From NCBI RefSeq assembly GCF_019396405.1, contig NZ_JAHKRL010000277.1:1-43619 (forward strand): 43,619 nt of DNA. The letters are read 5' to 3'. This stretch comes from Nonomuraea rhizosphaerae (GTDB lineage Bacteria; Actinomycetota; Actinomycetes; Streptosporangiales; Streptosporangiaceae). The notes beneath the pieces were generated by a model. The model had not been told where the DNA came from. It saw only the letters and a list, made by a program, of their open reading frames with translations, and searched no databases. The translations under genes and the position numbers were made by a program. Below, piece by piece: positions 34,811 through 37,012 of this stretch (positions are counted from its first letter, which is position 1; each line of letters begins with the position of its first letter).

Positions 34811-37012
34811 TCAGCAGGGTTCCATCACGGGTACCCTCTCCTCCGGCCTGAACTCCACATTGGGGAAGTACTTCGCCAGAAGGTCCTTGACGACGCCCTT
34901 CTTGTACAGGTCGGCGATCACGCCCTTGACCGCGACACAGGTCTTCGCGTCGCCCTTCCTGATGCCGACGGCGTAGCGCTCGTTGTTGAGCTTGGCCCCG
35001 AGGATCTTGAAGCGCTGGTTCTCGCGGCTGGCGAACCCCGCCAGGATCAGGTCCTCGCCCGGCACCGCGACGACCTTGCCGCTCCTGAGGAGGTCCATGC
35101 ACTGGGCGTAGTCCGTGGCCGGGACGAGCGCGACCTTCACCTTGTCCTGCACGGCGCCGACGGACGGGCTGTCGGGGGCGCACATCCTCCTGCCCTTGAG
35201 GTCGGCGATGGAGTCGATGGGGGCGTCCGGGTCGTTGTCGCTGACGAGGACGTCGTGGTGGGCGACGTAGTACGGGCCGGCGAACTCGACGTCGTCCTTG
35301 TCGATGGAGTACGTGGCGATGACGAGGTCCACCTTGCCGTCGGCCAGCTCCTGCTCCCGATCGGCCTTGGGCAGCCTGACGAACTCCGTCTGCTTGGCCC
35401 CCAGCTCGGAGGCGATCCGCCCGGCCAGGTCGATGTCGAAGCCCTCGAAGCGGCCGTCACGTTGCAGGGCGACGCCGGGCAGGTCCCCCTTCACCCCAAT
35501 CACGATTTTTCCGGTCTTGGAGACCTTGTCGGCTACCGAGTTGAACGTCCCGGGCTGCGATGGGCCGTCCCCGCGCGTCGGGGTCGGCGCGGGGGTGAGG
35601 TTGAACGCGATCTGCGCCCATCCGTTCAGCACCGCGACCAGCACCGTCGCGGCGATCAGCACGGCGGCGACGACGAGGGCGATCCAAAACGTACGCCGCC
35701 CCGAACCGGGCACGATCGTGTCGGAGTCACGACGGGCGGGCGGGGAGCCGTCGGCCGGAGGAAGGCTCTCGGGCGGGACGGTGCCCTGGACGGGGGCCGC
35801 CGCCGTGACGGGACTCGGGGCCGCGGGGCTGGAAAAGGGACCCGCGCCCGTCACCCACGGGATGGGCTCGCCACCCGTCACCGCCGACTGCTCCGGCGGA
35901 TGCAGCAACGACCGCGCCACGGGCTGCGACGCCGGCCCGGCGCCGGTCTGCGGACCCGACTCGGCTCCCGTCCGCGGACTCACGGGACGGTGCACCGAGC
36001 CGGTGTGAGGCATCACACCGGAGCTGGAACCGGCCTGGGCCTGCGGGGCCGACGCACCCGGGCCCGCACCCGTACTCGCGATCGCGCCTGTGCCTGTGCC
36101 TGTGCCGACCGTCCCCGCCGACACCCTCGTGAACGGCGTGGTGTCGTCGCTGGCCACCTGCACGCCCCGCGTCAGCACCGCTGTGGACGCCCCCGTCGTC
36201 TCCTCCGTCTGCCCCAGCAGCCGCAGCAGGATCTGGTCGGCCGACGGGCGTTCGTCCGGCGACTTGCTCAGCGCCGACCGCACCACCCCGCGCAGCGGCT
36301 CGGGGAGCATGCTGACGTCGACCTCGTGGTTCAGGATCCGGTTGAGCACGACCGCGATCGAGTTGCCCTCGAACACGGTCTCCCCGGTGGCCGCGAACGC
36401 GATCGTCGCCCCCCAGGCGAACACGTCCGTGTACGGCCCGATGTCGTCGCCGGCGATCTGCTCGGGCGCCATGTACGCGGGCGTCCCGATGGCCCGGCTG
36501 GTGATGGTGCCGCTGGAGTCGATGATCCTGGCGATGCCGAAGTCGACCACGCGCGGCCCGTCGGGGGCGATCAGCACGTTGTCGGGCTTGAAGTCGCGGT
36601 GCACGATCGAGGCGTGGTGGATGGCGGTCAGCGCCGTCGCGGTGCCGATGGCCAGCCGGTCGAGCGGCGTCCCGCGCAGCGGCCCGTCGTTGTCGACGAT
36701 GTCGCGCAGCGCGCGCCCGTCGATGTACTCGCTGGCGATGTACGGCGTGTCGCCGTCGAGGTCGGCCTCGATCACCCGGGCGGTGCAGAACGACGCCACC
36801 CGTTGCGCCGCCTTCAGCTCCCTCGCGAACCGCGACCTGGCGATCGTGTCACCGCTGAACTTGACATGCAGCAGCTTGATCGCCGCCTGCTCCCCTTCGT
36901 CGGTGACGCCCAGGTAGACGATGCCCTGGCCGCCCTCCCCGATCCGGCCGGTCAGCCGGAACGACCCCAGCATGCTCGGGTCGCCCGCGACCAGCGGCGA
37001 GATCTGCGGCAT
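34811..37012 (-). CDS. Ser/Thr protein kinase fused to an extracellular amino-acid-type solute-binding domain
   Basis: A 733-residue membrane receptor-type kinase. Residues 17-270 form a Hanks kinase: IGEGGQGIVYLG loop, K46 in AAIKLLHV, H138-R-D140 followed by FKPDN, D157-F-G159 in VVDFGIAR and MAPEQ. A long Ala/Gly/Pro-rich linker (about 280-430) leads to one membrane segment (FWIALVVAAVLIAATVLVAVL, about 438-460). The outer part, about 485-733, is a family-3 solute-binding protein: KIVIGVKGDLPGVALQRDG, FEGFDIDLAGRIASELG, KVDLVIATYSI, VEFAGPYYVAHHDVLV, DLKGRRMCAPDSPS and YAVGIRKGDAKT. It should sense an amino acid or similar ligand outside and signal through phosphorylation. GGGGAAG precedes the ATG. 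It lies upstream of mdh. Confidence 0.93.
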   Translation of the reverse strand: MPQISPLVAGDPSMLGSFRLTGRIGEGGQGIVYLGVTDEGEQAAIKLLHVKFSGDTIARSRFARELKAAQRVASFCTARVIEADLDGDTPYIASEYIDGRALRDIVDNDGPLRGTPLDRLAIGTATALTAIHHASIVHRDFKPDNVLIAPDGPRVVDFGIARIIDSSGTITSRAIGTPAYMAPEQIAGDDIGPYTDVFAWGATIAFAATGETVFEGNSIAVVLNRILNHEVDVSMLPEPLRGVVRSALSKSPDERPSADQILLRLLGQTEETTGASTAVLTRGVQVASDDTTPFTRVSAGTVGTGTGTGAIASTGAGPGASAPQAQAGSSSGVMPHTGSVHRPVSPRTGAESGPQTGAGPASQPVARSLLHPPEQSAVTGGEPIPWVTGAGPFSSPAAPSPVTAAAPVQGTVPPESLPPADGSPPARRDSDTIVPGSGRRTFWIALVVAAVLIAATVLVAVLNGWAQIAFNLTPAPTPTRGDGPSQPGTFNSVADKVSKTGKIVIGVKGDLPGVALQRDGRFEGFDIDLAGRIASELGAKQTEFVRLPKADREQELADGKVDLVIATYSIDKDDVEFAGPYYVAHHDVLVSDNDPDAPIDSIADLKGRRMCAPDSPSVGAVQDKVKVALVPATDYAQCMDLLRSGKVVAVPGEDLILAGFASRENQRFKILGAKLNNERYAVGIRKGDAKTCVAVKGVIADLYKKGVVKDLLAKYFPNVEFRPEERVPVMEPC

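Follow-up and report, generated by a model that had tools for sequence, protein, structure and literature searches.

A receptor kinase with an amino-acid-type binding domain beside TCA-cycle genes in Nonomuraea and related genera

The stimuli of bacterial protein kinases are named as an outstanding question in the available part of PMC6069109, and the question is raised in a direct form by a gene of Nonomuraea rhizosphaerae in which a kinase and a periplasmic-type binding domain are joined just ahead of the gene for malate dehydrogenase, mdh. What does such a protein sense, and does it act on the enzymes encoded beside it? The gene (34811-37012, minus strand, ATG start) lies in the window, the whole stretch of 43,619 nucleotides that was analysed, and encodes 733 residues. 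The Pkinase domain (residues 20-262; 36227-36955, minus strand) scored 131.3 bits in Pfam against a cut-off of 31.7 (PF00069) and displays a GEGGQG loop, the AAIK lysine, HRDFKPDN, DFG and APE. It is followed on the same strand by a linker rich in Gly, Ala, Pro and Thr (35684-36226), by the single membrane segment of the hydropathy scan (residues 444-462; 35627-35683), which has RR immediately N-terminal to it, and by an outer SBP_bac_3 domain (residues 503-717; 34862-35506) that scored 64.7 bits against a cut-off of 26.4 (PF00497) and was also recognized by structure modelling and fold search. With one hydrophobic segment and the RR pair just ahead of it, the kinase is predicted to be inside and the SBP outside, and the order kinase, membrane segment, SBP in one chain is that of an SBP receptor kinase. 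The mdh gene (33779-34753, minus strand; Ldh_1_N and Ldh_1_C in Pfam) comes next, with a terminator-like hairpin 3' of it (33732-33764, minus strand; terminator scan). The preliminary description had proposed a fusion of an intact kinase, a single membrane segment and a complete family-3 SBP, 57 bases ahead of mdh; the fusion was borne out by Pfam and hydropathy, the kinase by its score and by motifs unchanged in all 50 aligned stretches, the complete fold by the Pfam match and a confident structure model (pLDDT 92), and the distance, counted from the kinase stop codon to mdh, was confirmed. Judged from sequence and model, the protein is a single-pass receptor Ser/Thr kinase. The explanation preferred here, tentatively and at somewhat less than even confidence, is that it serves as a receptor kinase for a small ligand and acts on central carbon metabolism.

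The kinase half reads as an intact RD-type Hanks kinase, predicted on the inner side of the membrane. All 50 aligned kinase stretches agreed at the GEGGQG, ATP lysine, alpha-C glutamate, HRD, KPDN and DFG positions, and their activation loop, TITSRAIGTPAY, was nearly invariant as well. These 50 include locus L018, whose kinase frame differs from its SBP frame; there (204-2232) the two stretches lie in different frames, pointing to a frameshift or an assembly error. The highest NCBIfam scores were those of AfsK (198.4 bits) and PknB (168.9 bits), with cut-offs of 1300 and 450, respectively. The genome of the window holds 45 Pkinase matches. A second kinase gene was observed in the window itself (28179-29933, plus strand), encoding 584 residues with a Pkinase domain and WD40 repeats.

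The fusion is not a chance feature. The relatives search gave a close match in each of the 36 genomes of the genus, with identities of 53-75% in the 35 besides that of the window; Nonomuraea aurantiaca also carries the kinase-SBP gene, and a plasmid sequence scan gave a full-length relative in Nonomuraea gerenzanensis (63.8% identical). A total of 61 loci were read, 42 of the genus (the window, L016-L055 and L077) and 19 (L058-L076) spread over 18 further genera of the family. All 61 contain the SBP and 59 the kinase, the other two (L036 and L054) being loci of 2460 and 2374 bases on contigs that end before the kinase. Kinase identity to the window protein ranged from 68 to 96% across 58 relatives. 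The membrane segment ends 253-291 residues from the C-terminus in 49 full-length proteins, that of the window included, as determined by hydropathy, in which overlapping windows divide the segment into two or three in 10 of the 49. The linker is very variable in length, and whole proteins range from 609 to 810 residues.

Shorter paralogues of the SBP kinase, of 601-606 residues and with a kinase identity of 65-66%, were observed in three genera (L084, 1584-3392; L085, 2045-3856; L086, 1152-2972; L087, 1299-3104). An arginine stands at the site of GlnH Arg169 (discussed below) in two of them and close by in the other two, and none of 13 other island query proteins matched within the 5 kb read. 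In the kinase tree they fall among the island kinases, beside an open, weak fork (87/77). A single island kinase without the SBP was also found (L115, 4365-5690, minus strand; Pfam), a protein of 442 residues ending just past the membrane segment. It was considered as an ancestral form and rejected, since its long branch in the tree arises within the mdh-linked fusions (fork 91/92); this position suggests that the SBP was lost in L115, the long-branch placement being unsure.

The preliminary description had tied the kinase to mdh by position, and this pairing is kept in related genomes: mdh lies immediately downstream of the kinase-SBP gene in all 42 loci of the genus that were read. In other genera icd takes the place of mdh or accompanies it beside the kinase-SBP gene. 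Among 79 listed fusion genomes from outside the genus (18 genera), icd was located upstream, on the same strand and within 10 kb, in 77; the exceptions were G127, where the icd match is on another contig, and G274, where the fusion lies close to the start of its contig and icd gave no match. Downstream, mdh was found within 5 kb in 28 of the 79, and within 250 bases in nine of these. In 19 of the 79 (L058-L076) the reading covered kinase and SBP alike; for the remaining 60, an SBP match of 44-54% identity within an open frame of 408-1140 residues was accepted as the sign of a fusion. G107 (548 residues), G285 (424 residues), shorter frames and second matches per genome were excluded. The usual order outside the genus is an FHA gene on the opposite strand, citrate synthase, DUF3017, icd and the kinase-SBP gene, then mdh or a PadR-like/MFS-like pair, with galE, a CBS-domain gene and trpS farther away; individual loci show gaps in this order. 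Pfam confirmed FHA, citrate synthase, DUF3017, icd and mdh, and the remaining neighbours were named by eye. The FHA gene, divergent from citrate synthase or icd, occurs with and without the kinase (for example at 10-660 of L060, minus strand); its product ends in a LuxR-like part (GerE just under the cut-off) and might read phosphothreonine within the island. In the window, an open reading frame at 40142-41872 (plus strand) looked by eye like a transposase of the ISAs1 type, its second half apparently out of frame.

The surroundings of mdh were also searched in 20 further genomes or places, over 8-12 kb with 15 query proteins and matches at 1e-10. No island genes were found near mdh in 11 fusion genomes (L104-L114) within these 8-12 kb, and none near mdh in L116, L118, L120 and L123 either. 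L115 showed the order FHA, citrate synthase, icd, SBP-less kinase and mdh. Four loci of four other genera (L117, L119, L121 and L122) had FHA plus icd or citrate synthase before mdh and no kinase match, and the TCA island thus does not require the kinase.

The gap between kinase and mdh spans 57 bases in the window and 51-113 bases in 47 loci, with mdh starts set by homology. It contains TAGCAT (34794-34799, minus strand), a putative promoter (-10)-like box. The wider motif TA[AG]CATC was found within the gap in 44 of the 47 loci and no more than 120 bases upstream of mdh in nine of the 20 further loci, eight of the nine having no kinase beside mdh; it was absent in the other 11. Overall it precedes mdh in 53 of 67 loci, and its background is 0.005 per 120 bases of one strand in all loci fetched. 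The -10 box consensus is TANNNT, which TA[AG]CATC resembles, and mdh seems from this motif to have its own promoter. A terminator scan of 33500-37300 gave two sites, with 1.0 expected in shuffles, and no terminator-like site between kinase and mdh, and transcription read-through from the kinase into mdh is possible. Co-transcription is not needed, however, as the promoter-like box stands in the gap and also ahead of some mdh genes located elsewhere; the single kinase-mdh transcript that the preliminary description had in view is accordingly not implied, given a box conserved in 44 of 47 loci.

Gene neighbourhood by itself does not establish the target of a kinase, and a link between this kinase and the control of Mdh is one that we infer. 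The kinase might occupy the icd-mdh island through inherited gene order only and have its targets elsewhere, in the cell wall or in development, a reading that likens it to other actinobacterial receptor kinases. The island occurs without the kinase, mdh has a promoter-like box of its own, and with 45 Pkinase matches in the window genome a kinase near any given gene is not rare. Broken islands nevertheless keep the kinase with icd (77 of 79 listed genomes outside the genus) or with mdh (42 of 42 loci of the genus), although a retained neighbour is also compatible with slow gene-order drift, and inherited order as the sole reason is considered unlikely, though a serious competitor.

The outer domain bears on what is sensed. 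Its model (mean pLDDT 92.3, pTM 0.89) shows the two-lobed fold of amino-acid-binding proteins, and among the near solved structures were 5eyf, the glutamate-bound SBP of Enterococcus faecium (Z 24.8, 231 aligned, 3.4 A), and 6h1u, M. tuberculosis GlnH with Asp (Z 22.4, 237 aligned, 4.2 A); the fold search covers only structures ranked by Foldseek, and other SBP types remain compatible. The best sequence matches of the domain were likewise amino-acid SBPs, GlnH among them. Fold likeness by itself does not tell ligand identity, and the pocket was compared with GlnH residue by residue. According to the available part of PMC6069109, GlnH Arg169 helps to bind the amine and carboxyl groups of the ligand. 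In the window protein the aligned site falls in a gap, leaving no alpha-carboxylate arginine there; the loop concerned (TYSIDKDDVE, residues 567-576; 35285-35314, minus strand; alignment to GlnH) is three residues shorter than that of GlnH and, apart from the first ten residues, is the weakest block of the model (model residues 81-90, pLDDT 72). Among the 61 fused domains, 59 lack R at this site, which is R in two and K in six, and 49 have a loop shorter than that of GlnH. In the genus, neither R nor K stands at the site in any of 42 domains, and the loop has 9-11 residues in 40 of the 42, against 13 in GlnH; in the 19 domains of other genera the site holds R in two, K in six and another residue in two, and the loop has a length of 11 in nine. 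Counted anywhere in the loop, a Lys or Arg is present in 29 of the 42 genus domains (Lys 572 in the window) and in 10 of the 19 others, and such a residue might substitute for Arg169, the exact equivalent site in short loops depending on the alignment.

The rest of the pocket is mostly retained. The site of Arg147, which holds the side-chain carboxylate in GlnH, is R in all 61 fused domains; the Asp250 site is always acidic (D in 43, E in 18, including the window protein) and is followed by D in all 61. The Thr162 site has T in 59 and A in two, the Ser164 site S in 41, A in 11 and others in nine, and the Trp232 site Y in 53, others in eight and W in none, whereas PG[DE]D and FAGPY are conserved in 61 of 61. 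Stand-alone SBPs served as a control: 15 of 17 have R at the Arg169 site and two (L088 and L089) one residue later. The 17 came from 15 genomes and were picked among the best matches listed, not randomly, two of them from the genome of the window and the rest from seven other genomes of the genus, five of other genera of the family and two of another family; the window genome has five other SBP_bac_3 matches, of which L009, L012 and L013 were omitted, having no tblastn match to the fused domain. When loci were divided by the presence of mdh within 5 kb, R or K stood at the aligned Arg169 site in none of 50 mdh-linked domains versus 8 of 11 others, and anywhere in the loop in 29 of 50 versus 10 of 11. 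The kinase tree groups the mdh-linked loci and this association may thus be one event, so no statistics were drawn; L059 has a short loop despite lacking mdh linkage.

The label of amino-acid sensor, used in the preliminary description, therefore stands for the fold and not for the anchor, Arg169 being missing at the aligned site in 59 of 61 domains. That the protein is a one-protein counterpart of GlnH-GlnX-PknG, a receptor through which an external amino acid such as Asp or Glu would inform TCA control, is consistent with the fold and best matches, with the mostly retained GlnH contacts (Arg147, Thr162 and the acid at Asp250), with a Lys or Arg in the loop of 29 of the 42 genus domains and of 10 of the 19 others, with such a residue at the Arg169 site itself in 8 of these 19, and with the TCA-gene setting; the aligned site without Arg in 59 of 61 domains, the shorter loop in 49 of 61 and the stand-alone SBPs, which keep the Arg on site or one residue on, make it an improbable reading. 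Least convincing is an outer domain that no longer binds a small ligand and has become a docking or dimer domain, for example for a protein or a wall fragment, a doubtful idea that the lost Arg169, the uncertain loop (the inner part modelled with the lowest confidence) and the SBP-less L115 would allow, and that runs against a pocket which is among the best-conserved positions, with Arg147, PG[DE]D and FAGPY in 61 of 61.

Under the preferred explanation, that of a receptor kinase for a small ligand acting on central carbon metabolism, a small molecule would close the outer SBP domain, closure would pair the kinases or reorient them, and the kinases would phosphorylate their own activation loops. 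The effect of the activated kinase on central carbon metabolism would most likely run through the enzymes of adjacent genes (Mdh and, outside the genus, Icd) or through a GarA-type FHA protein controlling the 2-oxoglutarate node. A free alpha-amino acid bound in the usual manner is probably not the ligand, since the arginine for the alpha-carboxylate is gone from its site while all 61 domains retain Arg147 and the acid at the Asp250 site; the best fit appears to be a carboxylate, or an amine whose carboxylate is distant. Counted against this explanation as a whole are the island without the kinase, the SBP-less L115, the paralogues L084-L087 outside the island and the promoter-like box of mdh, and counted against its ligand part is the Lys or Arg somewhere in the loop of 29 of 42 genus domains, that of the window included. 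A bolder version, offered as a conjecture with little expectation of being right, is that in the branch containing Nonomuraea the fused receptor lost its alpha-carboxylate anchor and reads another outside carboxylate, which the kinase signals directly to the TCA enzymes of the adjoining genes. If true, this carboxylate, for example that of an organic acid or of an amine that bears it at a distance, would be a second input beside the PknG arm. The interest of the locus lies in a receptor and kinase in one protein, with a well-modelled outer domain and a place next to TCA genes that recurs in 19 genera of a single actinomycete family; these features make both the input (the ligand) and the output (Mdh, Icd or GarA) directly testable.

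Compared with known systems, the protein is a well-conserved variant of known SBP kinases, and its place in the genome is unusual and informative. The SBP-kinase fusion is not new, and the points of interest are the TCA setting and the altered pocket; the receptor type and the possible target each have precedent, and within the literature searched neither their combination nor a kinase-SBP gene in a TCA-island setting was found in print. The AfsK and PknB families, which gave the highest NCBIfam scores, yet far under both cut-offs, carry other outer or C-terminal domains. In M. tuberculosis, as far as the available part of PMC4393303 goes, six Ser/Thr kinases, PknD among them, phosphorylate Mdh in vitro, the enzyme is less active once PknD has phosphorylated it, and the FHA proteins GarA and Rv0020c bind the phosphorylated form, which provides a precedent for Mdh phosphorylation and for GarA binding of the product; the sensor of PknD is a beta propeller, by a reference title in the same article, whereas that of the window protein is an SBP. 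The PknG-GlnX-GlnH system of mycobacteria and Corynebacterium also ties a GlnH-type SBP to a kinase and to TCA control, to which the window protein is tied by its setting, with three proteins in place of one and with the Arg169 that the window protein has lost from the aligned site; GlnH of C. glutamicum shows weak Asp and Glu binding (PMC9769921, available part). No PknG_TPR was found by Pfam in the window protein, which has one membrane segment and is not a PknG. Replacement of PknG by the fusion was ruled out, since 52 of 54 genus genomes carry a PknG_TPR match; the misses were G669 and the window's own genome, and the latter is uninformative as that assembly is 64% complete. Since PknG is kept and GlnH-like SBPs lie about 4-5 kb from the PknG match in five loci inspected (L091-L095), the window kinase would work in parallel to the PknG-GlnX-GlnH arm and not in its place. 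The contrast with mycobacteria drawn in the preliminary description, separate proteins there and a fusion here, did not hold, as the genus keeps PknG and MSMEG_1200 (StpK7) of M. smegmatis is already a Ser/Thr kinase and SBP in a single polypeptide, a type that the available part of PMC6069109 describes as conserved in several Mycobacterium and Streptomyces species, with 260 further cases in InterPro. The NCBIfam StpK7 model (NF052427) matched the window kinase, and its positions 353-406 matched the SBP very weakly (14.7 bits); identity with StpK7 was rejected at 112.9 bits against an equivalog cut-off of 900. In the available part of PMC13355554, StpK7 represses a BREX-like island via MSMEG_1198 and is linked to phage susceptibility, whereas the kinase of the window is found with TCA genes.
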